Shown here piece after piece: positions 26,597-41,930 of a stretch of DNA of 64,000 nt. The first letter of the stretch is position 1, and each line of letters starts with the position of its first letter. Under the pieces are notes generated by a model, which saw nothing but the letters and a program-made list of their open reading frames with translations, made no database searches and was not told the DNA's origin. The DNA comes from Peristeroidobacter agariperforans (GTDB taxonomy: Bacteria > Pseudomonadota > Gammaproteobacteria > Steroidobacterales > Steroidobacteraceae). The stretch lies in NCBI RefSeq assembly GCF_004138335.1, contig NZ_RYFW01000006.1, positions 62,001 through 126,000 on the forward strand. The letters run 5' to 3'. The position numbers and the translations under genes were made by a program.

Positions 26597-27222
26597 GGCT
26601 CGACCAGATCGAATCGTTCGACTGGAGCAAAGGCGACGGCCTGCTGCCTGCCGTCGTGCAGGACGCCACCAATGGCAAAGTGCTCATGCTCGGTTACATG
26701 AACCGCGAGGCGCTGCGCAAGACGCTCGGCGAAAAGCGCGTGACGTTTTACAGCCGGAGCAAGCAGCGGCTGTGGACCAAGGGCGAGACCTCCAGCAACT
26801 TTCTGCACCTGGTCGATGCCGCCATCGACTGCGACAACGATACGCTATTGATCACGGCCCGGCCCGATGGCCCGACGTGCCACAACGGCATGGATAGTTG
26901 TTTTGGAGATGACATCGGCACGACGGCAACTCGGCTCGCCTTCCTCTCCCGGCTCGAGTCGGTGATCGAGAAACGCGTGAGCGAGCGGCCTGAGGGCAGC
27001 TACACCGCGCGCCTGTGGGCCGATGGTCCAACTCGCATGGCTCAGAAGGTCGGCGAAGAAGGTGTCGAGGTTGCGCTCGCGGCAGTGACCCAGAGCGACG
27101 ACAAGCTCGTCGGAGAAGCCGCCGATCTACTGTTTCACCTGACGCTGCTGTTGAAGAGTCGTCAACTGTCCTTGGGCCACGTGGTCACAGAACTGGAACG
27201 GCGCCACACCGCCAAGAAGTAA
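26593..27222 (+). CDS. hisI: Bifunctional phosphoribosyl-AMP cyclohydrolase / phosphoribosyl-ATP pyrophosphatase
   Basis: Steps 2 and 3 of histidine synthesis in one 209-residue protein. The HisI half (residues 1-115) has [14 protein letters not shown], the Zn site in [11 protein letters not shown] and [12 protein letters not shown]. The HisE half (about 120-209) has [16 protein letters not shown] and [13 protein letters not shown]. Its start overlaps hisF by 4 bp. It is the last gene of the his operon. Confidence 0.97.
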
Positions 27223-27290
27223 GTTCAACAACGACTTGAGAGCTGCGAAAGTCAGCACTGCGCCCCGTCGCTCGCCATTCTCAAATATAT

Positions 27291-27321
27291 GTGCGCCGGC
27301 CTGCCTCCGGTCGCGGCGCAC
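27291..27321 (+). other. Stem-loop after the his operon
   Basis: GTGCGCCG and CGGCGCAC form a perfect 8-bp stem 69 bp after hisI, without a T run. The rest of the 237-bp spacer 27223-27459 holds a second imperfect hairpin at about 27333-27356 and two similar ATATGTGC segments. No promoter is convincing. It may stabilise or end the his mRNA. Confidence 0.4.
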
Positions 27322-27459
27322 CATCGGCTAGCACTTCTCCCGTGGGGCGCGGGAAGCATATGTGCCCGGTCTACCAGGGGCGTGGAACCGTGTGGCACAT
27401 AACCGTTCTCATGGCGTGCCGTCAGGCACTCGAGGACGCGGGCGGAGAACAACAATCGC

Positions 27460-28257
27460 ATGCTTTCGTACACGGCCCGGCCGGAGCCCTCGCCCCTATC
27501 GATCTGGATGGAACAAATCACTCCGTGCGCCGGGGAGCTCGCGTGGTGTCATTCCACCGATGCCTACCGGCTTCAGAAGATCATTCGTCGCGGCGAGCTA
27601 CGCTCGCCAACTCCCTGCAAAGTGTTTGGGGAGCCACTCTCTTATTTTTGCTACGGCAGACCCGCCTACAAGAAGGCTTCCTCAACGTCGATACGAACGA
27701 CGGGGTGTGCCCCGGTGGCAATCCTGATGTCATCCGAACTCCTGAAATGGCGCAAGCGGGTGTTTCCTTTCGATAGCGGAGGGTTCGTTCAAGGACGATA
27801 CAGCGCATGGCTGCACAGGTCGATGGAGCTTCACGAGTTCGACATCACCCGGTTGCCCGACTGCGCCCGGCGGTTCGTGCCCTCCTTCTACGCCACCCAT
27901 CTCGATTATCTGACGCTGCAACCCCGCCGCCCGACCATTCCCTATGCCGACTTCTATCAAGTCGAGGCGTTGGTCGCGATGCTGACCGATACCGACGCAT
28001 CCAAGGCCGACGACCGCCGCTTCATCGTCGAGCTGCAAGTCGAGCAGCCCATTCCATTCGAATGGCCGTTCGTGCGCGGCCTGATCCTGCCACAACAGCT
28101 TCGGGCGACATCCTTCGTCTCAACGTTCCTGAAGGGCCCGGGCCGCGGGGTGAAGGTTCGCTATTTTCATTGTTCGCCAAACAAAGTTGCCCTCGAATAT
28201 CAAGGGCTGCTCGAACACCTCGCTCTGCAACTGCAAAAAGAGTGGAGGATGCTATGA
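27460..28257 (+). CDS. Unrecognised protein, co-translated with a FecR-like gene
   Basis: 265 residues, no signal peptide or membrane segment, so cytoplasmic. I do not recognise the family. Visible features are an N-terminal block WCHSTDAYRLQKIIRRGELR (residues 29-48), then SYFCYGRPAYKK (61-72), a PVAIL strand (85-89) and a mostly alpha/beta remainder ending in a charged helix. The early H-S-T followed by a Y-GRPAY segment is faintly reminiscent of ADP-ribosyltransferase-fold proteins such as DarT-like toxins, but this is only an impression. Its stop overlaps the next ATG (ATGA), so the two products are made together. ATG 27508 is an alternative start. Confidence 0.65.
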   Translation: MLSYTARPEPSPLSIWMEQITPCAGELAWCHSTDAYRLQKIIRRGELRSPTPCKVFGEPLSYFCYGRPAYKKASSTSIRTTGCAPVAILMSSELLKWRKRVFPFDSGGFVQGRYSAWLHRSMELHEFDITRLPDCARRFVPSFYATHLDYLTLQPRRPTIPYADFYQVEALVAMLTDTDASKADDRRFIVELQVEQPIPFEWPFVRGLILPQQLRATSFVSTFLKGPGRGVKVRYFHCSPNKVALEYQGLLEHLALQLQKEWRML

Positions 28258-29345
28258 AGGATCAAAGCGGCGTCCTGATCGGCGTCTGTCGGCCCCTGCC
28301 CGACGTCCTCGGCTTTGTCACGCCCGTTTTCCGCGATCGCGCCGGGGAGCCTGTCGCCCAGATCGTAGAGAACGGTCGCATCGTACGCTTCGTGGAACTG
28401 GATCTCGGCGAAGAGTTCGTGCCGTTGAAAAGCTTTGCCAGCGTGAGTGTCGGAGAACCTGCGCTCTACGGGATGGAGTTCGAAGACTGCATCTGCGTGG
28501 GGTCACCGGGCGTGTCGGACTGGTCAGACGAGGATGCTCTCAAAACCGCCTTTGAAAACAGCCGTCATGACAAATCGACCGGGCTTCTGACATTTCCACA
28601 CCCCCAGACGCGCAAACGGAATCTCCGCATGGCGCTGGCAGCGTGCGTTGCCCTGCTGGCCTTCGGGTTGGCCTTCGTGGTGCAGGATTACCTGAAATCC
28701 AATCGGGTGATCGCAACGGACGAGAGACAGCTGGATCACAGCACGCTGCGTGACGGCACCGTCGTGCATCTCGGTGCTCTGACACAAATCAAGGTCGACT
28801 ACGTCGATGCGGCGCGCATCGTGTATGTGCACAAAGGCGATGTGGTGTTCGATGTGGCGAAGGATCGGCAGCGTCCGTTCATCGCGCGAACGGATTTGGT
28901 CGACATCACGGCGGTAGGCACGAGGTTCGGGGTCTCTGTCGACTCCGGGGTGACCACCACAGTGGCCGAAGGATCCGTGACAGTAACGCGCCGTGGAAGC
29001 GCTAGTGGCCTTGTCAGGTTGCTGAAGGCGGGCGAGGAACTGCGTGTGCCGGCAAACCCATCCACTTCATTACGGGTTGAGCCTGCGAACGCGGAACGCA
29101 AGCTGCAATGGGCGACGGGCTGGCTGGATCTCAGTGGTTTGACGGTGGCTCAGGGCATCGAGCAGCTCAACCTTCGCAATCGGATGCAGATCCAGGCGGA
29201 CAGTCCCACCATCAGCGAGCAGGTCGTCGATGTCGCGCTAGTGAAGGTCGACTCGCCGAAGCGGTACGCCAAGGCAGTCGCCGACGAACTGGGCGTCCGA
29301 ATGACGATCGATGAGGAAAACGGCGTGATCCGGCTCTCGGAATAA
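28254..29345 (+). CDS. FecR-like transmembrane signalling protein with unusual N-terminal domain
   Basis: 363 residues. One membrane span (about 125-145, MALAACVALLAFGLAFVVQ) separates a cytoplasmic N-terminal part from a periplasmic FecR domain (about 155-255, with LRDGTVVHLGALTQIKV and DITAVGTRFGVSVD) and a C-terminal STN/DUF4974-like region (285-360). FecR proteins normally begin with a short DUF4880 anti-sigma segment; here about 110 residues of different sequence (GVLIGVCRPLPDVLGFVTP onwards) take its place. No ECF sigma gene is adjacent. A GTGGAGG ribosome site precedes the ATG at 28254. Expected to relay a signal from the receptor encoded next. Confidence 0.82.
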   Translation: MKDQSGVLIGVCRPLPDVLGFVTPVFRDRAGEPVAQIVENGRIVRFVELDLGEEFVPLKSFASVSVGEPALYGMEFEDCICVGSPGVSDWSDEDALKTAFENSRHDKSTGLLTFPHPQTRKRNLRMALAACVALLAFGLAFVVQDYLKSNRVIATDERQLDHSTLRDGTVVHLGALTQIKVDYVDAARIVYVHKGDVVFDVAKDRQRPFIARTDLVDITAVGTRFGVSVDSGVTTTVAEGSVTVTRRGSASGLVRLLKAGEELRVPANPSTSLRVEPANAERKLQWATGWLDLSGLTVAQGIEQLNLRNRMQIQADSPTISEQVVDVALVKVDSPKRYAKAVADELGVRMTIDEENGVIRLSE

Positions 29346-29352
29346 ATTCCCC

Positions 29353-32178
29353 GTGCCCCTTCTCGGCTGCAGATTGTCATGGATGTTCGCGGCACTGCTG
29401 CTCCTGGCGTGCGCGTCCACTTACTCCGCGCAACCAGACCGCACCACGCAATTCAATTTCGATCTCAAGAGGGGCTCACGCGCCGCCGTCCTGAAACAGT
29501 TTTCTCGACGAACCGGTCTGCAGATCATCAATGTAAAGGGCAGCCAAACCAGGGAGCTCGGTCCGTACATCGGGTACGTTACAGTCGACGAGGCCCTGCA
29601 GGCGCTGCTACTGGACACCGACCTGTCCTACACATGGCAGGATGAGGACACGATAAAAACATATCTCAAGGTCGTCGAACCGCCGCGAGCGGAAGACGGC
29701 GTCAGAGAAGTGCTGGTCACCGGCAGTCGCCTCGGCTTTGGCGCGGAAGGACCCGTACCTGTCAGAGTGTATGACCGGCAAAGCATCGACCGACTCGGCG
29801 CCTCGAGTCTGCCTGCTGTGTCGAGCTACTTCACGCAGCAGCCCTTTTCGTTCAGCGAATGGGCTCAGCAGAGCGGAGCGCAACACATTCAGATGCGCGG
29901 CTTGGGCGTCGACACGACGCTCGTGCTCATCAACGGACGACGAGCGCCCCCCAGCACAAGTAGTGTCTCGCTAAACGCATTCGATTTGAACAGCATACCG
30001 CTGACGGCAGTGGAACGAATCGAAGTGATGTCCGATTCGGCGTCCGCCATCTATGGCGCCGATGCGATCGGCGGCGTGGTCAACATCATCCTGAGAGACA
30101 GGATCCGCTCGCCCGAGATCTTTCTACACTACGGTCAAGCCGCTGGCGGCGGCGCCGAGCAGCGCGTCGCAGGCTCGCTTGGCGCCACCACCGAGCGCCT
30201 GAAGTCCTCGCTGGTACTGGACTACTTCGACAGAGCCGCGCTCATGGGAGAGGCTCGGGATCTATGGCGAAATCAGGATTACCGTCGCTTCGGTGGATAT
30301 GACTATCGTGTCACCACGACGCAAGCCGGTAACGTCTATTCCCTGACCGGGGAGCCTCTGCCGGGGCTGCCCACATCGGCTGCCGCCGTTCCCTCCGGAA
30401 GGACGGGAGGACTCAGCCCGGCCGATTTCCTCGCAACGGCAGGCACAGTCAATCGGGGCAGCTCTTCCAGTGACCGGTCCATCAAGCCGCAATCGGTCCG
30501 CCTGAGCGCCTTTGGTTCAATAGAATTTGACCTCTCCGATCAGCTCAACTTCTTCGGAGAGCTGCTGGCGGTCAACGGCACGGTGACTTCCCTGAGCGCA
30601 CCGCCGTCCCTGACTCAGCAACTCGTTCCTGCTGACAATCCTTTCAATCCGTTTGGTGAGGCAGTCCTTGTCGATTATTCCTTCGCCGATCTGGATTCGA
30701 TCTCACACACTTACGACACCGAGCAAGTGCGCATGGTCCTTGGCGCTCGGGGCGAGCTCGGTCGGTGGGATTGGGAGTTTTCCGGTCAACGCAATCATGA
30801 AAATGGATCGAGTACGGTGCTGGGAGAGATCAACCTGGCCCGAGCCAGGGAAGCGGTCCATTCCGCCGATGCGCAAAATGCGCTCAATCTTTTCTCCGAT
30901 GGCCCAGCGGGCACTACTACGCTGCTGCAATCCCTGATGGATCCTCCGCGGCGTCTAGACACGTCGTTCTCCAGCTCCCAATGGTCTGCGTTCCTCAGAG
31001 GGCCGCTGTTCCAAATGCCCGGCGGGCGAGTAGAGGCAGTGGTTGGCGCGGAGTGGCGTCGTGATGCGGCTGAGTTCTTCGAATCGGGCACGCGCATCGA
31101 CGAGTACCGAGATGTCGCCTCGATGTTCTCGGAGATCAGGCTGCCATTGCTCGACCATCTGTCATTGAAGCTGGCTCTCCGCGGTGATAGCTATGGCTCC
31201 GCGAAGGACATGGTGACTCCCCAATACGGGCTTGTCTGGCGCCCGTCATCGCAGTGGCTGGTTCGCGCCGCTTATGGAACGAGCTTCCGGCCACCGTCGA
31301 TGCTCGCGTTGAATACGCCGATGTATCGATTCTCCTTCCCAATAGCAGACCCCTTCAGGGGCGGCTCCGTGTCGGCCGTCGCACTCATCGCGGGTGGCAA
31401 TCGTGATCTCGATGCCGTAACCGCGCACTCCTTCACCTCGGGTCTCACTTATCGATTTTCCGAGCTGCCCGGTTTGAGCTTGGGTGGCAGTTACTGGCGT
31501 GTTGCGATGGACAATCGGATCGTGGTGCCGCGCTACGCCGAACTGCTGAATCCGAAGAGTGACTTGGGCCATTATCGCTCGGTGCGCGACCCACCGAGCG
31601 ATGAGGATGTGCGGGCGGGCTGGGCGGGGCCGTTGCGCTCACTCGACCTTCGTCTCATCAACTATGGTGACTTGCAGACCAGCGGCGTTGACCTGGACGC
31701 ATCGGCGACTGTCGAGGGCAACCACGGAAGCTTACACGCGAAGCTGTCGGCGACCTGGGTCCACGAATACCTTGTGCGCGACACGAATCAGGCGTTGCCC
31801 CCGGATCGAGTAGGAATCGCGAATATACAAGGCACCATCCCGGCGTGGCGCGTCGTCGGCTCGCTGGTTTGGGAGTTTCGGTCGTTTGGCGCCTCGACCA
31901 CCGCGACGTTCACGCCGTCCTATCAGGATGCCGATGTGTGGTACGGGCCGCTCGATAGACACATCGCCTCTCGGACCCTCGTGGACCTGCAAGCCTGGGT
32001 GGATCTGGACATCGCCGGAACCACTTTGCTCGATGGAACGAGAGTCACGCTCGGCGCTCTGAATGTGTGCGACGAAACTCCAGACTTTGCAAACGCCGGA
32101 GCGTCGCTTGGATATGACATCTCCCAAGCGGACCTGACAGGCCGGTTCATCTATTTCCGGATTACGACGCGCTTCTGA
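29353..32178 (+). CDS. TonB-dependent receptor with N-terminal STN domain
   Basis: 941-residue outer-membrane receptor/transducer starting with GTG. A signal peptide covers residues 1-26 (FAALLLLACASTYSA). An STN (secretin/TonB short N-terminal) domain spans about 30-110. The plug begins near VREVLVTGSRLG and includes IQMRGLGVDTTLVLINGRR and SASAIYGADAIGGVVNIILR. A 22-strand barrel should follow, ending in FIYFRITTRF with a terminal Phe as is usual. The STN domain implies signalling through the FecR-like protein encoded 7 bp upstream. The ligand is unknown. Confidence 0.93.
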   Translation: MPLLGCRLSWMFAALLLLACASTYSAQPDRTTQFNFDLKRGSRAAVLKQFSRRTGLQIINVKGSQTRELGPYIGYVTVDEALQALLLDTDLSYTWQDEDTIKTYLKVVEPPRAEDGVREVLVTGSRLGFGAEGPVPVRVYDRQSIDRLGASSLPAVSSYFTQQPFSFSEWAQQSGAQHIQMRGLGVDTTLVLINGRRAPPSTSSVSLNAFDLNSIPLTAVERIEVMSDSASAIYGADAIGGVVNIILRDRIRSPEIFLHYGQAAGGGAEQRVAGSLGATTERLKSSLVLDYFDRAALMGEARDLWRNQDYRRFGGYDYRVTTTQAGNVYSLTGEPLPGLPTSAAAVPSGRTGGLSPADFLATAGTVNRGSSSSDRSIKPQSVRLSAFGSIEFDLSDQLNFFGELLAVNGTVTSLSAPPSLTQQLVPADNPFNPFGEAVLVDYSFADLDSISHTYDTEQVRMVLGARGELGRWDWEFSGQRNHENGSSTVLGEINLARAREAVHSADAQNALNLFSDGPAGTTTLLQSLMDPPRRLDTSFSSSQWSAFLRGPLFQMPGGRVEAVVGAEWRRDAAEFFESGTRIDEYRDVASMFSEIRLPLLDHLSLKLALRGDSYGSAKDMVTPQYGLVWRPSSQWLVRAAYGTSFRPPSMLALNTPMYRFSFPIADPFRGGSVSAVALIAGGNRDLDAVTAHSFTSGLTYRFSELPGLSLGGSYWRVAMDNRIVVPRYAELLNPKSDLGHYRSVRDPPSDEDVRAGWAGPLRSLDLRLINYGDLQTSGVDLDASATVEGNHGSLHAKLSATWVHEYLVRDTNQALPPDRVGIANIQGTIPAWRVVGSLVWEFRSFGASTTATFTPSYQDADVWYGPLDRHIASRTLVDLQAWVDLDIAGTTLLDGTRVTLGALNVCDETPDFANAGASLGYDISQADLTGRFIYFRITTRF

Positions 32179-32193
32179 GAGCTGACGCCTCTA

Positions 32194-32660
32194 TTAAGTT
32201 GCCTCCAGAACCACCGAATACGTGTAGCTCACGCCCTGCCGGCTATCCTTCGCAGGCGTCGGCCGATGACGCGACATTGCCAGATACAACGCCCGGCCCG
32301 CTCGGCTTGAAGCTGAATCGACCTTCTTTATCCGTCGTCACTTCGACGAACGGCTTCTGATCCGCGGAAAGCGCCTTGCCGCCGAAGATGGACACGGCAT
32401 GGCCGACGAGCGGCTTGCCATCGAATAGCACCTCGAACTTCACGTCCGACCCGACGAAAGTGGAGTTCGGATGGGACAGCGCTCGATACTCCAACCCCGT
32501 GTTGCGCGCAGCGAGCGCCTGCGCGTGACCTTGCCGTCGCCATCGTCATCCCACGTGCCGATGAATGCGTTGCCCGTGTGGCCGCCGGTGGGCATAGCTT
32601 TGCCAACTTCCGCGGTCTCGGCGCCATGGGCTCCGCTACGGATCGAGTCCACAACGTCGG
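32194..32660 (-). pseudogene. Decayed DUF4198-like periplasmic protein
   Basis: No single frame is intact, but neighbouring frames on the minus strand read as one protein. An upstream fragment is PTGGHTGNAFIGTWDDDGDG. A second frame gives ALAARNTGLEYRALSHPNST, then VLFDGKPLVGHAVSIFGGK and VTTDKEGRFSFKPSGPGV. A third frame gives DSRQGVSYTYSVVLEAT and a stop at 32194. This order fits the second half of a DUF4198 (metal-associated periplasmic) protein broken by at least two frameshifts. It lies just downstream of copB, so it was probably part of the copper operon. Where the original gene began is unclear. Confidence 0.65.
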
Positions 32661-36812: not shown

Positions 36813-39311
36813 TTGCAACTCGAACGCTGGCACCAGATCAAAGATCTCTTTTCCGCGGCTTTGGAACACCCCACTGCCGATCGTGCCGCCTTTCTCGACC
36901 GGACCTGCGGCAACGATATCGAGCTGCTGGCCCAGGTGCATTCGCTGCTCGATGCTCACGAAAGCAGCCTGGGCTTCATCGAGCGTCCCGCCATAGAGCG
37001 AGCCGGCCTCGCTCCACCCTTCGAGCCGTGGGATTGGCAGGGCCGGCGTCTGGGCAACTACCGCATCGTCAGCGAGCTCGGCCGCGGCGGCATGAGCCAT
37101 GTCTACAAGGCGGTTCGCGACGACGATCAGTACTACAAGGAAGTGGCCATCAAGCTGCTGCGCCCTGGCCTCGATACGCAGGGTCTGTTGCAACGGTTGC
37201 GTGACGAGCGCCAGATGCTCGCCGAGCTGAGTCATCCGAACATCGCTCAATTGCTCGATGGCGGCGTCACCGAGACCGGCGCGCCCTACCTGGTCATGGA
37301 GTACGTCGAAGGCCAACCGATCGATGAGTATTGCGAAGAGCGCGGGCTGAGCATCCCCGCGCGACTCGATCTGATGCGAACGTTGTGTGGCGCGGTCCAT
37401 TACGTGCACCAACATCTGATGGTTCATGGCGACCTGAAGGGCGGCAACATCCTGGTCACCCAGGGCGGCGTGCTGAAGCTGCTGGATTTTGGCATCGCCA
37501 AGCTGCTCAACGCGTCGAGCGAAGCCTCGCAGGCCCTGAACAATCAGTTCGTGGCGCTGACGCCGGCCTACGCGAGTCCCGAACAAATCCGTGGCGAGCC
37601 CATTACTACGGCGAGCGATGTCTACTCGCTAGGCGTCCTGCTCTACAAGTTGCTCGCGGGCACGTTGCCTTTCGAGGTGCCGGCCGAATTGTTCGGTCGG
37701 GATGCAGCGGCGGCCTCAGGCGATCGTCAGCCTCGTCTGCCCAGCATCGCTGCCGAGCAAGGAAAAATCGCTTCATATCGTCGCATTGCCCGGCAGTTGC
37801 GCGGCGATCTCGATGTCATCGCGATGAAGGCGCTAGCCAGGGAGCCCGAGGATCGCTACGGCTCCGCCGAACACCTCGCCGAGGATATGCATCGCTATCA
37901 GCGCGGCTTCCCGGTGCACGCGCATCCCCCGCGGGCCCTGTATCGCACACGAAAGCTGGTGATGCGTCACAAGGCGGCGACGGTTGCGTCGGGGTTGTTT
38001 GCTGTCGCAATTGTCTCCGGCATCGTCGCCACTGCGTGGCAAGCTCATGTGGCGAGCAACGAGCGCGCACGCGCCGAGCGCCACCTGGCAGAGATTCGGA
38101 AACTCACGAACACCTACCTGCGCGATGTCTACGACGCGGCAGTCAACCTGCCGGGCGCCACTGAAGTGCGCAAGCTGCTGGTGGAGAACTCGCTGAAACA
38201 CATCGCCGCGCTGGAGAGCGAATCGCAGGACTCGCTCGAGTTCAAGCGCGAGCTTGCACAGGCTTATCAGCGCTTTGGCGATGTGCAGGGAGACTATCTG
38301 GGCGCCAACCTCGGCGACACGGAGGGCGCGGTGCAAAGTTATCGTCGCGCGCTGCGCCTGCGTGAGCAGGTCGCACAGCAGAGCCCGACCCTCGCCGACG
38401 TGTCCGAACTGCTACGCAGCTACGTTTCTGTGAGCGAGCTGCTGGCGGCGCAAAGCAAGCTCGATGAGGCCATCGAGCTTGCGGAAGACGCCGACGACAT
38501 CGGCCAAAAGCTCGCGGCCATGCCGGGCGCCACTGCCCCCGAGCATCGGATGGCGGCTGCGGCTCGCATGCTGCTCGGAACGAACTTGAGCACCGTCGAT
38601 CTGCCGCGAGCCCTCGAAGCCCTGCAATCCGCACGAGCGACTTTCGAACGCCTGTTCGCTGAGCAACCCAAGAATCCAGGCGCGCGTCGCGACATGGCGC
38701 TGATTCACAGCCGCCTGGGCTTTGCTTATGCGCGCGCCTGGCAATACGAACAGGCCCTGGAGCATTACCTGCCCGCGTCCGACTACGCCGAACGATTGGT
38801 GGCGGAGTTCCCGGCGGATGCTGCGGCTTTACGAGGCGGGGCGTTTGCGCTCAACAACATCGGCGAAGTGTATAACGCCCTGGGCCAACCCGATCAGGCG
38901 CTCAGCCGATTGCAACTCGCGCTGGAACGCGTCGAGCATCTGCTGCGGATCGATCCCGTAAACGAGCAGGCATCCGTCGCCGTGGCTTACGTGTTGAATC
39001 AGCTCGGCGACAGTTATCTGTTGAAAGGCGAGCCCGCAACGGCCCTGACGCATTTGAATCGGGCCTTGCGGCTGGTCACTGAAGCGCCGCCGCCGAAGCC
39101 CACTGACATCGCCGAGGTCCGCATGCTTCCCGGCATGACGAACTTCCGTCTCGGCAAGGCGCACGCGCTGCTGAAGCATCAGCGCGAAGCTGCAACCTTT
39201 CTGGCAGCCAGCCTCACGCGGCTGGAGCCCCTGACCGCCGATCCGGTCGTCGGCAAGGATGCGCAGCGCCTCACCGAGGAAGCGAGGCAGCTGCTTCAAT
39301 CCGCGAGCTGA
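36813..39311 (+). CDS. Membrane Ser/Thr protein kinase with TPR-like C-terminal region
   Basis: 832 residues. The kinase domain (about 84-360) has the glycine loop ELGRGGMSHVYKAV, catalytic Lys114 in EVAIKLL, the loop VHGDLKGGNILV (Asp207) and DFGIAK (225-230). The residue before the catalytic Asp is Gly, not Arg, so it is a non-RD kinase. A membrane span near 390-412 (ASGLFAVAIVSGIVATAWQA) is followed by about 400 residues of helical TPR-type repeats, presumably periplasmic. The start is a TTG; a stop 11 codons upstream excludes others. Its stop directly abuts that of the convergent lysC-lysA fusion. Relatives are often paired with an ECF sigma gene; none is here. Confidence 0.9.
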   Translation: MQLERWHQIKDLFSAALEHPTADRAAFLDRTCGNDIELLAQVHSLLDAHESSLGFIERPAIERAGLAPPFEPWDWQGRRLGNYRIVSELGRGGMSHVYKAVRDDDQYYKEVAIKLLRPGLDTQGLLQRLRDERQMLAELSHPNIAQLLDGGVTETGAPYLVMEYVEGQPIDEYCEERGLSIPARLDLMRTLCGAVHYVHQHLMVHGDLKGGNILVTQGGVLKLLDFGIAKLLNASSEASQALNNQFVALTPAYASPEQIRGEPITTASDVYSLGVLLYKLLAGTLPFEVPAELFGRDAAAASGDRQPRLPSIAAEQGKIASYRRIARQLRGDLDVIAMKALAREPEDRYGSAEHLAEDMHRYQRGFPVHAHPPRALYRTRKLVMRHKAATVASGLFAVAIVSGIVATAWQAHVASNERARAERHLAEIRKLTNTYLRDVYDAAVNLPGATEVRKLLVENSLKHIAALESESQDSLEFKRELAQAYQRFGDVQGDYLGANLGDTEGAVQSYRRALRLREQVAQQSPTLADVSELLRSYVSVSELLAAQSKLDEAIELAEDADDIGQKLAAMPGATAPEHRMAAAARMLLGTNLSTVDLPRALEALQSARATFERLFAEQPKNPGARRDMALIHSRLGFAYARAWQYEQALEHYLPASDYAERLVAEFPADAAALRGGAFALNNIGEVYNALGQPDQALSRLQLALERVEHLLRIDPVNEQASVAVAYVLNQLGDSYLLKGEPATALTHLNRALRLVTEAPPPKPTDIAEVRMLPGMTNFRLGKAHALLKHQREAATFLAASLTRLEPLTADPVVGKDAQRLTEEARQLLQSAS

Positions 39312-41930
39312 TCAGATCAGCACTTCGATCGCGGGCTCACGCAGGTTGTAGGTCGAGCTCATCGCCCGTCCGTACGCACCGGCCGTGGCGATCAACAGCA
39401 CGTCACCTTCCTGCGTCGGCGGCAGCAGGCGGTCGTTGCCCAGCTGATCGCCCGACTCGCAGATCGGACCGACGACATTGAACACCTCGGTCGCGAGATC
39501 GTCCAGGCGAGAGAGATTCACGATCTCGTGGTGCGCGCCGTACAGCGCCGGGCGAATGAGTGAATTCATGCCCGTGGCGACGCCAACATAGTTCACTTCG
39601 CCCTTGCCCTTCAGCTGCGTCACCTGGGCCAGCAATACGCCAGCTTCAGCAACCAGATAGCGGCCCGGCTCGATCCACAGCGTCAGCTTCGGATGCGCCG
39701 TCTTCAGTGCGGCCAGCGTCTCGCCAAACTCGGAGAGCTGCACACCCTGTTGCCCCAGACGCTCCGGCACGCCGAGGCCACCGCCCAGATCGACGATGCG
39801 CACGTCCTTGAAGCGTTGTGTCAGCGCGGTGAGCGTGTCGCCCACCGACTTCCAATTGTCGACCGTGAACACACCGCTGCCAGTGTGTGCGTGCAGACCG
39901 ACAACCCGCGCCCCCGCCGCCTTCACCAGGCGCTCGAGCTCATCCATTTCGAACAACGGCACGCCGAACTTGGAGTGCACGCCCGCCGTGCGCACCTTGT
40001 CGTGATGACCCCGGCCATAGCCCGTGTCGATGCGAATGAACACGTCGCGGCCCTTGAAGACTTCCGGCCACGCCTTGAGCGGATGCAAGTTATCGAGCGT
40101 CACCCAGATGCCCTGCTGCACGCCCCACTCGTACTCCGCGCGCGGCGCGAAGTTCGGCGTGAACAGGATCTTCTGCTTGTCGAGCTTCGGCAGCGTCTTC
40201 ATGACGTGCTCGACTTCGAAACGCGATACGCACTCGAAGCCCAGGCCCTGCTCGGCAAACAACTTGAGGATCTCCGGATGCCAGTTGGCCTTCAGCGCAT
40301 AGAACACGCCTTCGATGCCCGGCAGTGCGCGCAATGCCTTGGCCTTGGCGGTGAGCGTCGCACGGTCGTAGACGAACGCCGCGCTGTGCTCGCGACCCAG
40401 CGAGATCAGATCGTTGCGACGGTCGTGCCACCACTGCTTCAGATCGATCGCCGCCTTGTCCTTCGGGCCGTACAGCTCTTCCCAGGTCGGGCCGAGCACC
40501 CGATCCGCGGTCATCTTCTGGATCGCAATGTCGTGCAGTCGCGAGACCAGGCGATCGCCCTGCCCCTCGTCGATCACGAAAGTGATATTGAGGTCGTTGG
40601 CCGCCTGCGTCACCAGATAGATCTTCTGCTCTTCGAACAGCTCGAGCGCATCACCGAGCCGGTGCAGGATGGCGCGAATGTTTCTTCCGACCAGGCTCAC
40701 GGCCGCGCACGGACCGATGACTTCGACGCGGCACAGCTTGCCCAGGTCCACGACCAGCGCATCGAGCGTCGCCTTGTCCAGCGTATTCGCGGCCGGATCG
40801 AGCGACACGGTGACACTGGTCTCGGACGTCGACACCAGATCGATCGACAGGCCGTGATCCTTGAACACCTGGAAGGCATCGGCGAGGAAGCCCACCGAAT
40901 GCCACATGCCGACCGTTTCCATCGACACCAGCGTGATGTTCTTCTTGATCGTGACTGCTTTCACCTGCGCGGCGACGTTGCCACCGTGCGTGGTGATGAC
41001 GGTGCCTTCGAGCTTCGGCGTCTGCGTCGCGTAGACATACAGCGGAATGCCGTACTGCTTCACCGGCATGATGCAGCGGGGATGCAGAACCTTGGCGCCG
41101 CTGCTAGCGATTTCCTGCGCTTCATCGTACTCGAGCGCACGAAGCAGTCGAGCTGTCGGCACCGAGCGCGGATTCGCGCTGAACATGCCGGGAACGTCGG
41201 TCCAGATTTCCAGGCGACGCGCGCCCAACTTCGCCGCGAAGTAACTGCCCGACGTGTCGGAACCGCCGCGCCCCAGCAGCACGGTGTCGCCGTGCTCGTC
41301 ACTCGCGATGAAGCCCTGCGAGATGAACACTGTGCCCTGCGTCGACCAGCGACGCTGCAACTCGAGATCGGGCTCGTAGTTGCAAGTGGCGGAGAGATAG
41401 CTCGAGCGCAGGTTCGCGTTGCGACGCTGCTCGGCCTTGAGCACCGTGCGAGCATCGACCCACTGCACATCCAATCCTTGAGCCGCGAGGAATGCAGCAC
41501 CGAGTCGCGTTGCCATCAATTCGCCCTGGGCCATCACGCGAGCACGCAGGCGCTCGCTCACTTCGCCAACCAGCGCGATGCCGGCCGCGATCTGCCGCAG
41601 CCGTTTGAACTGTTCCTCGAGATCCTGGCTGGGCGTGACCCCGAGATCGCGCGCCAGATCGCGATGGCGCTGTTCGATCTGATTCATCACCGCCTGCGCT
41701 TCATTGCCAAGCGTGTTGTGGCTGTCCAGCGAGACGGCGAGCAGCTGCTCGAGCCGGTCGGTAATGCCCGAGAGCGCCGAGTGGACAATGACCGGGCGCA
41801 GCCCTTCGGCGAGCCGGTCGCGAACCACTGCCGCGATATTTTTCCAATTCGCTACCGAGGAAACGCTGGTACCGCCGAACTTGAGCACCACCCACGGCGA
41901 CGCCGCGGGCGTGGAATCAGCCATCGTCAT
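39312..41930 (-). CDS. lysC-lysA: Bifunctional aspartate kinase / diaminopimelate decarboxylase
   Basis: 872 residues joining the first and last steps of lysine synthesis. Residues about 12-300 are aspartate kinase (VVLKFGGTSVSSVANWKNIA; LGRGGSDTSGSYFAA). Regulatory ACT domains follow to about 465 (VSMETVGMWHSVGFLADAF). Residues about 500-872 are the PLP decarboxylase: YALKANWHPEILKLFAEQG with the PLP lysine, GLHAHTGSGVF, VDLGGGLGVPE and the C-terminal RLLPPTQEGDVLLIATAGAY. Such fusions are known in xanthomonads. Having both ends of the pathway in one chain suits lysine feedback through the ACT domains. Confidence 0.95.
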   Translation of the reverse strand: MTMADSTPAASPWVVLKFGGTSVSSVANWKNIAAVVRDRLAEGLRPVIVHSALSGITDRLEQLLAVSLDSHNTLGNEAQAVMNQIEQRHRDLARDLGVTPSQDLEEQFKRLRQIAAGIALVGEVSERLRARVMAQGELMATRLGAAFLAAQGLDVQWVDARTVLKAEQRRNANLRSSYLSATCNYEPDLELQRRWSTQGTVFISQGFIASDEHGDTVLLGRGGSDTSGSYFAAKLGARRLEIWTDVPGMFSANPRSVPTARLLRALEYDEAQEIASSGAKVLHPRCIMPVKQYGIPLYVYATQTPKLEGTVITTHGGNVAAQVKAVTIKKNITLVSMETVGMWHSVGFLADAFQVFKDHGLSIDLVSTSETSVTVSLDPAANTLDKATLDALVVDLGKLCRVEVIGPCAAVSLVGRNIRAILHRLGDALELFEEQKIYLVTQAANDLNITFVIDEGQGDRLVSRLHDIAIQKMTADRVLGPTWEELYGPKDKAAIDLKQWWHDRRNDLISLGREHSAAFVYDRATLTAKAKALRALPGIEGVFYALKANWHPEILKLFAEQGLGFECVSRFEVEHVMKTLPKLDKQKILFTPNFAPRAEYEWGVQQGIWVTLDNLHPLKAWPEVFKGRDVFIRIDTGYGRGHHDKVRTAGVHSKFGVPLFEMDELERLVKAAGARVVGLHAHTGSGVFTVDNWKSVGDTLTALTQRFKDVRIVDLGGGLGVPERLGQQGVQLSEFGETLAALKTAHPKLTLWIEPGRYLVAEAGVLLAQVTQLKGKGEVNYVGVATGMNSLIRPALYGAHHEIVNLSRLDDLATEVFNVVGPICESGDQLGNDRLLPPTQEGDVLLIATAGAYGRAMSSTYNLREPAIEVLI

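Follow-up and report, generated by a model that had tools for sequence, protein, structure and literature searches.

What receives the signal of a FecR-type relay when no sigma factor is encoded beside it? This question is raised by a cluster of three genes, here called A, B and C, in a 64,000-nucleotide stretch of Peristeroidobacter agariperforans DNA (contig NZ_RYFW01000006.1, positions 62,001 to 126,000; hereafter the window). To our knowledge, transcription by an extracytoplasmic function (ECF) sigma factor is the only output of TonB/FecR relays. We consider it rather probable that the cluster is a TonB-receptor/FecR relay in which the cytoplasmic end has been exchanged, with protein A, of predicted ADP-ribosyltransferase (ART) fold, held by an N-terminal domain of protein B that we term BN. 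A sequence-only reading of the window had suggested that the first protein may replace the sigma factor as an enzymatic output, with the new N-terminal domain of the second as its inhibitor, and this is supported at the level of sequence, architecture and predicted structure.

The cluster consists of three tightly packed open reading frames (ORFs), all on the plus strand, for A, B and the TonB receptor C, and the ORF calls confirmed the ATGA and 7-bp junctions described earlier. Its features are as follows.

27223 to 27459, plus strand: presumed leader of the cluster, the intergenic stretch 3' of hisIE, between hisIE and A
27460 to 28257, plus strand: gene A, 265 amino acids, predicted ADP-ribosyltransferase fold (AlphaFold2 model, Foldseek, invariant residues)
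28254 to 29345, plus strand: gene B, 363 amino acids, a chimera of BN domain, linker, membrane span, FecR domain and STN-like stretch
28254 to 28508, plus strand: BN domain of B, residues 1-85, presumably cytoplasmic and the partner of A (BN profile, AlphaFold2)
28629 to 28685, plus strand: membrane span of B, residues 126-144 (Kyte-Doolittle window 2.35)
28710 to 28979, plus strand: FecR domain of B, residues 153-242 (Pfam PF04773, E 9.5e-14; PDB 4m0n, E 1.5e-9)
29106 to 29342, plus strand: STN-like C-terminal stretch of B, about residues 285-363, by eye
29353 to 32178, plus strand: TonB-dependent receptor C, 941 amino acids, with an N-terminal extension (plug and barrel; N-terminus aligns with triad receptors)

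At 28254-28257 the sequence ATGA holds both the start codon ATG of B and the stop codon TGA of A, and C begins with GTG after a 7-bp gap. An in-frame ATG for B is possible as far upstream as 27807; the start was set at 28254 because the ATGA overlap and the BN alignment favour it.

The absence of a sigma factor was assessed across the host genome of 7.65 Mb, which has 20 FecR matches. A genome profile search placed a DUF4880 (PF16220) match in front, within 700 bp, of 17 of these, and a sigma r4_2 match lay at most 1 kb upstream of 18/20 FecR genes when all 79 r4_2 matches in the genome (E<=1e-3) were used. The window FecR gene is the only one of the 20 with neither, so that the cassette is sigma-less, as the sequence-only reading had held. 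Two further FecR genes have no DUF4880 match, and both have a sigma match 0.6-0.7 kb upstream; the other FecR gene that has no sigma match ahead of it directly follows another FecR gene. A DUF4880 domain at the N-terminus of B was looked for with Pfam, which gave FecR and no DUF4880. No sigma factor of its own lies nearby, the closest r4_2 match on the contig being 128 kb from the window FecR gene, although a distant one is possible.

The remainder of B resembles a conventional FecR protein. Its best hydrophobic window starts at residue 126 and is the strongest Kyte-Doolittle window among 73 B proteins (next 1.86). Because Arg/Lys lie directly before this span, the N-terminus should be cytoplasmic, and the FecR domain, whose PDB match is a putative anti-sigma factor, would be periplasmic. 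The nearest homologues of the membrane-FecR half were found in the same genus in G129 (45% identity, L113) and G115 (41%, L114), and further in the window's own genome (40%, L122), G074 (38%, L115) and G106 (40%, L116). In all five, inspection by eye shows a sigma-like ORF immediately upstream and an N-terminus resembling DUF4880; for the own-genome copy both were seen by profile. BLASTP of the window B against these five proteins gave homology from residues 127-152 through 361-363, whilst residues 1-120 gave nothing significant (best E 0.64). Thus, of what had been read in the second protein, the membrane span, the FecR domain and an N-terminus unlike DUF4880 (which is BN) all held, and the STN-like part is seen by eye only.

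Protein C has Pfam plug (E 1.4e-17) and barrel (E 2.2e-23) matches, in agreement with its earlier description as a TonB receptor; the STN domain also ascribed to it gave no Pfam match at E<=1, and its N-terminus found only chance-level matches in the PDB (E 0.32, 0.65). Residues 7-114 can, however, be aligned to the N-terminal part of a receptor from one of the triads (E 4.7e-18, the best of three). The four closest full-length C homologues (52-53% identity) adjoin four of the five nearest FecR genes, those of G106, G115, the own genome and G074; for G129 no receptor is seen within its short stretch. As the nearest FecR and receptor homologues adjoin one another in sigma triads, the trio seems to be a sigma/FecR/receptor triad with the sigma factor and anti-sigma domain replaced by A and BN. 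Judged by homology and architecture, A takes the position that the sigma gene has in the paralogous triads, as had been proposed for it. Both halves have diverged from their paralogues (36-42% for the FecR half by local BLASTP, 52-53% for the receptor) and their frames are undamaged.

We assessed BN by taking, with a script, the ORF that starts at the stop of A at each locus where A was found. Nearly all of these open with the same domain of approximately 85 amino acids. A BN profile built from 72 other loci, with the window held out, matched residues 5-85 of the window B at E 2.1e-9; against a background of the window ORFs, the 20 FecR loci and 1000 shuffles, the next best match was at E 1.8 (an unrelated ORF in L095), with one shuffle at E 9.9. 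A six-frame search of 84 loci with A, in which the window is counted twice and at least four other pairs are redundant, found BN in 78 (window included), always on the same strand and adjoining the stop of A; no A locus had it in a further ORF. A and B are thus adjacent and closely coupled, a feature of toxin-antitoxin pairs (ATGA overlap; 78/84 loci). Most BN partners used for the profile had first been chosen by their adjacency to A. For a two-fold hold-out, six duplicates, among them the window, and the six loci lacking BN were first removed; BN was then found in 71/72 loci, again with no match in a further ORF, and it was found in 4/4 loci retrieved later (of seven, the other three being already in the set). 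Among the six loci without BN, L052, L056 and L090 have sequence that stops close to the gene, and A is truncated in L017 and L069.

The A+BN pair therefore recurs widely, in several phyla, and the new N-terminal domain of B is the one with which A is regularly paired elsewhere; the whole trio, whose recurrence the sequence-only reading had put forward for a survey, was not found in other genomes. AlphaFold2 modelled BN as all-beta over residues 1-80, with a predicted local distance difference test (pLDDT) score of 91-97 in blocks across residues 1-80 and 73 in 81-90. A Foldseek search with this model found no PDB relative at E<=0.001, and the best match of the BN sequence to PDB sequences was at E 0.33. 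On our reading, BN would inhibit A by holding it.

The first protein had been called unrecognised, and so it proved: searches of Pfam, NCBIfam and PADLOC (2.0.0) with A gave nothing at E<=1, and as a single sequence it matched none of the PDB sequences at E<=10; an A profile against PDB sequences reached only E 0.7. B likewise matched 0 PADLOC 2.0.0 families at E<=1, and a search of A against PHROGs gave a single match at E 0.36. The AlphaFold2 model of A was scored at pLDDT 93.2 with a predicted template modelling (pTM) score of 0.91. When this model was searched against the PDB with Foldseek, DarT chains took ranks 1-6 (E 1e-4 to 1.6e-3, best Foldseek probability 1.00), followed by Tpt1 (rank 7) and a Salmonella effector whose solved structure includes NAD (rank 8); E was at or below 0.001 for three of the matches. 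Seven matches at E<=0.001 were found in a library of viral models, five of them named merely "uncharacterized protein". DarT homology of A by profile was also sought and was not found.

Alignment of 55 A members, window included, showed identity in 55/55 at H31, Y62, P103, F104, D105, G107, D184, R186 and E191, the invariance of P103, F104, D105 and G107 being partly built in since PFD[TS]GA was the search pattern. Among 23 further members found by plasmid tblastn or profile (L083 duplicates L060), H31, Y62, D105, G107, D184, R186 and E191 were kept in 23/23, P103 in 22/23 and F104 in 21/23. H, Y and E form the classical triad of one branch of the ADP-ribosyltransferase superfamily. The faint resemblance of H-S-T and Y-GRPAY motifs to ADP-ribosyltransferases, noticed from the letters, is thus borne out by the invariance of H31 and Y62 and by the match of the predicted fold. 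We predict A to be a protein of ADP-ribosyltransferase fold, and it would transfer ADP-ribose from NAD.

As a single-sequence query A found no match on genome contigs, and tblastn against plasmids found 13/72,556 records at E<=1, each below 60% identity; each of the ten plasmid records retrieved matches A in phmmer with an E-value of at most 1.8e-10. Phage records gave 0/50,697 matches, and again 0 with another A member as query. An alignment of 11 members, with a pattern around PFD[TS]GA, yielded 56 loci on genome contigs and 5 on viral-collection contigs. Judged by record title, the carriers belong to what we take to be Alphaproteobacteria, Burkholderiales, Flavobacterium, Bacteroides, Clostridia, Verrucomicrobia and Planctomycetota. 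A was found in 12/398 genomes of a phylum sample (own genome included) and in 7/385 genomes of a class sample of another carrier. Within the window's own class an A profile (A3) matched 1/369 genomes and within its own genus 1/14, in both cases the window genome. In a family sample the single sequence matched 7/200 genomes at E<=0.01, its own at 8e-186 and the next at 9.9e-4; the weak matches were rejected as chance, as they are local and the two best outside the own genome lie in MsrA-like ORFs (named by eye). In this lineage A is thus rare and was probably acquired. On a Paraburkholderia plasmid (L017:4842-8640) a truncated A lies between insertion-sequence genes and CBASS genes, and in L045 and L053 the frame of A is split while B is still open.

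The C-termini to which BN is joined elsewhere are varied. With Pfam, the type of C-terminus could be named for a minority of 71 B proteins: ribosomal protein S9 in 4, an nSTAND5 ATPase in 3, an nSTAND3 ATPase in 3, and FGE-sulfatase, cold-shock, RES, TPR and FecR (the window) once each, together with weak ATPase and OB-type matches. PDB searches added the C2 domain of initiation factor 2 (IF2; L038:6741-7472, E 6.9e-22) and a RelA/SpoT-type alarmone synthetase/hydrolase (L146:4871-6958, the same gene as in L141; E 8.7e-33). The four S9 fusions carry the complete ribosomal protein (L031:3454-4233, L042:6710-7489, L054:3926-4705, L057:6705-7466), with no second S9-like ORF seen in these four stretches. 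By eye, a recombinase-like ORF lies near BN-S9 in L031 and conjugation-like genes in L057. Also by eye only, BN is followed by BREX PglX methyltransferase-like sequence in L143/L145 and by helicase-like sequence in L144/L147; PDB searches with the C-termini of L143 and L144 gave no match.

One further locus (L068:4432-7931) has the order DarT-like ORF, 167-amino-acid macrodomain-like ORF (by eye), A, and BN joined to the DarG C-terminal domain, an arrangement equivalent to a split DarG. The DarT-like ORF was the one DarT match among neighbours and aligns with other DarTs. The B tail matches chain B of the DarT-DarG complex 7yk3 at E 4.8e-27. A domain that a solved complex shows bound to one ART here forms the tail of another ART's BN protein, which argues for a latch logic of BN.

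PADLOC, run on 216 neighbour ORFs from 57 loci, had Druantia, Lamassu, Septu and DarTG type genes near some copies of A among the 25 of 58 and 25 of 110 families listed. As a control, 39 ORFs of the window yielded as many as 34 families (among those listed mainly kinase-type models, MkoA and mad3 included), so these defence neighbours are weak evidence.

How the cluster might work can be set out by analogy with FecR systems, in which the signal of an engaged receptor passes across the periplasm and FecR is finally proteolysed (PMC9249621). A ligand or an attacker (siderophore, bacteriocin or phage) would engage receptor C, whose N-terminal extension would move onto the periplasmic part of B. 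B might then be cut or reshaped, upon which BN would free A or carry it into the cytosol, and A would transfer ADP-ribose from NAD to a target. Most likely A is a toxic or growth-arresting effector and B a latch that reports what its C-terminus senses, because A+BN is a compact mobile pair, found partly on plasmids and virus-like contigs, and BN occurs with many unrelated C-termini; toxicity is a first guess, drawn from the modular company that A keeps elsewhere. It is possible, though we would give it somewhat less than an even chance, that A+BN constitutes an undescribed surveillance platform, in which one ADP-ribosyltransferase effector and one latch are combined with a freely swapped C-terminal bait or sensor, including parts of the cell itself (ribosomal protein S9, the IF2 C2 domain, RelA/SpoT and the DarG inhibitor).

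Comparison with known systems places the cluster among them without equating it to any. DarT/DarG shares the ART fold (predicted for A) and, through L068, the DarG C-terminal domain of one B protein, and DarTG has a two-gene order, as does A+BN. It differs in that A has no detectable sequence relation to DarT, the window cluster has no macrodomain match and BN has no PDB relative. CapRel is a fused toxin-antitoxin that senses a phage protein, its antitoxin-like part doubling as the sensor; by description, its toxin and folds are different ones. The sensor of CmdTAC is a chaperone-linked antitoxin, whereas the window has a receptor relay. The likeness to CmdTAC, again by description, is that of an ADP-ribosyltransferase in an anti-phage system (PMC11618068). 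Panacea also has one partner domain common to many systems, but there a single antitoxin domain serves many toxins, where here one effector family and one latch domain go with many C-termini (PMC8832971). With FecI/FecR/FecA the cluster shares gene order, membrane span, FecR domain and a receptor with an N-terminal extension, and differs in having A and BN instead of the sigma gene and DUF4880. In the classical system proteolysis is carried out by Prc and RseP (PMC9249621). The same source describes IutY-type sigma/anti-sigma fusions, in which the cytoplasmic output of a single membrane-spanning relay protein is likewise rearranged, although the output of IutY is still an ECF sigma factor (PMC9249621). 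Among the titles and openings of abstracts listed in the literature searches, with most subscription papers and bioRxiv outside their scope, there was no description of the A+BN pair or of a FecR relay with an ART output.

Several observations weigh against a relay that ends in a latched ADP-ribosyltransferase. The DarT chains matched the A model with TM-scores of only 0.39-0.54 and a root-mean-square deviation of 7-8 Å; a Pfam DarT match was found in 0/55 A members at E<=0.1, and hhalign gave A against DarT a probability of 0.2 (with a shallow, 6-row DarT alignment). L061 has a full-length A without BN, and the form of BN joined to FecR was found in one genome only, with none among the other A loci read. 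By Pfam, no enzyme that removes ADP-ribose was seen among the three genes, and in view of PMC11445053 the sign of a partner domain's effect is not to be presumed.

Four other explanations were weighed. That B is an ordinary FecR protein served by an undetected or distant ECF sigma factor, with A as an unrelated neighbour, is very improbable indeed: the genome offers 79 candidate r4_2 matches, and two other FecR genes likewise have no DUF4880 match, but those two have their sigma match just upstream, and residues 5-85 of B are BN, whose neighbour elsewhere is A. Chance recombination may instead have joined an A+BN cassette to a FecR/TonB pair, giving an idle hybrid in which signalling is lost. 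This would suit a FecR form known from a single genome; we regard it as improbable in view of the three open frames with their tight junctions, the retention of H31, Y62 and E191 in A, and a junction placed before the membrane span, which leaves each half a whole domain. The divergence of both halves from their paralogues without frame damage also speaks against it.

The other two explanations accept the exchange and differ over what A or BN does. A might be a regulatory, non-toxic enzyme, with ADP-ribosylation as an ordinary physiological output (uptake control, metabolism) and not a means of suicide or defence. Its position in a triad of nutrient-receptor type is indeed that of a regulatory sigma factor, and in the window it is flanked by his and copper-resistance genes and not by defence genes. 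We nonetheless hold this unlikely, given the occurrence of A elsewhere on plasmids and on the 5 viral-collection contigs, the defence-type genes near some copies (a weak signal), the remnant beside CBASS genes, and the split frames of A beside open B genes. It is quite unlikely, too, that BN is an adaptor, not an inhibitor, bringing the transferase to its target or place (the ribosome, initiator tRNA, nucleic acid, alarmone metabolism or, here, the inner membrane below the TonB receptor). C-termini linked to translation or nucleic acid would be expected from such an adaptor, as with S9 in 4/71 B proteins, one cold-shock domain, the IF2 C2 domain and RelA/SpoT; the STAND ATPase, FGE-sulfatase, TPR, RES and FecR C-termini have no obvious common target, however, and the DarG fusion matches the chain bound to DarT in the solved complex. 

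If A+BN is such a surveillance platform, with the outer-membrane receptor relay as its sensor in the window, the cluster would be the first known route, within the searches made, by which a phage or bacteriocin at a surface receptor leads to an intracellular ADP-ribosyltransferase without a sigma factor. With an enzyme seemingly at the end of the relay, an event at the surface could affect the cell directly and quickly. A+BN is in addition a widespread, unnamed pair, by our reading of effector and latch, whose swappable C-termini provide a candidate list of the things watched, and the genome itself supplies a control in its paralogous sigma triad.

The cluster is preceded on its 5' side by his genes, the last of which is hisIE, and followed on its 3' side by copB and a multicopper oxidase gene on the opposite strand. 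No sigma-70-like promoter pattern was found in 27150-32400. The base composition of A and BN (58.9% and 61.6% G+C) is not distinct from that of the window (62.1%). A 24-nucleotide direct repeat, 79% identical, joins 26844-26867 inside hisIE with 27462-27485 at the start of A, and may be due to chance. Elsewhere in the window, 36816-39308 encodes TPR repeats with a protein kinase domain, and a single ORF at 39315-41930 combines aspartokinase-type (amino acid kinase, ACT) and pyridoxal-dependent decarboxylase domains.

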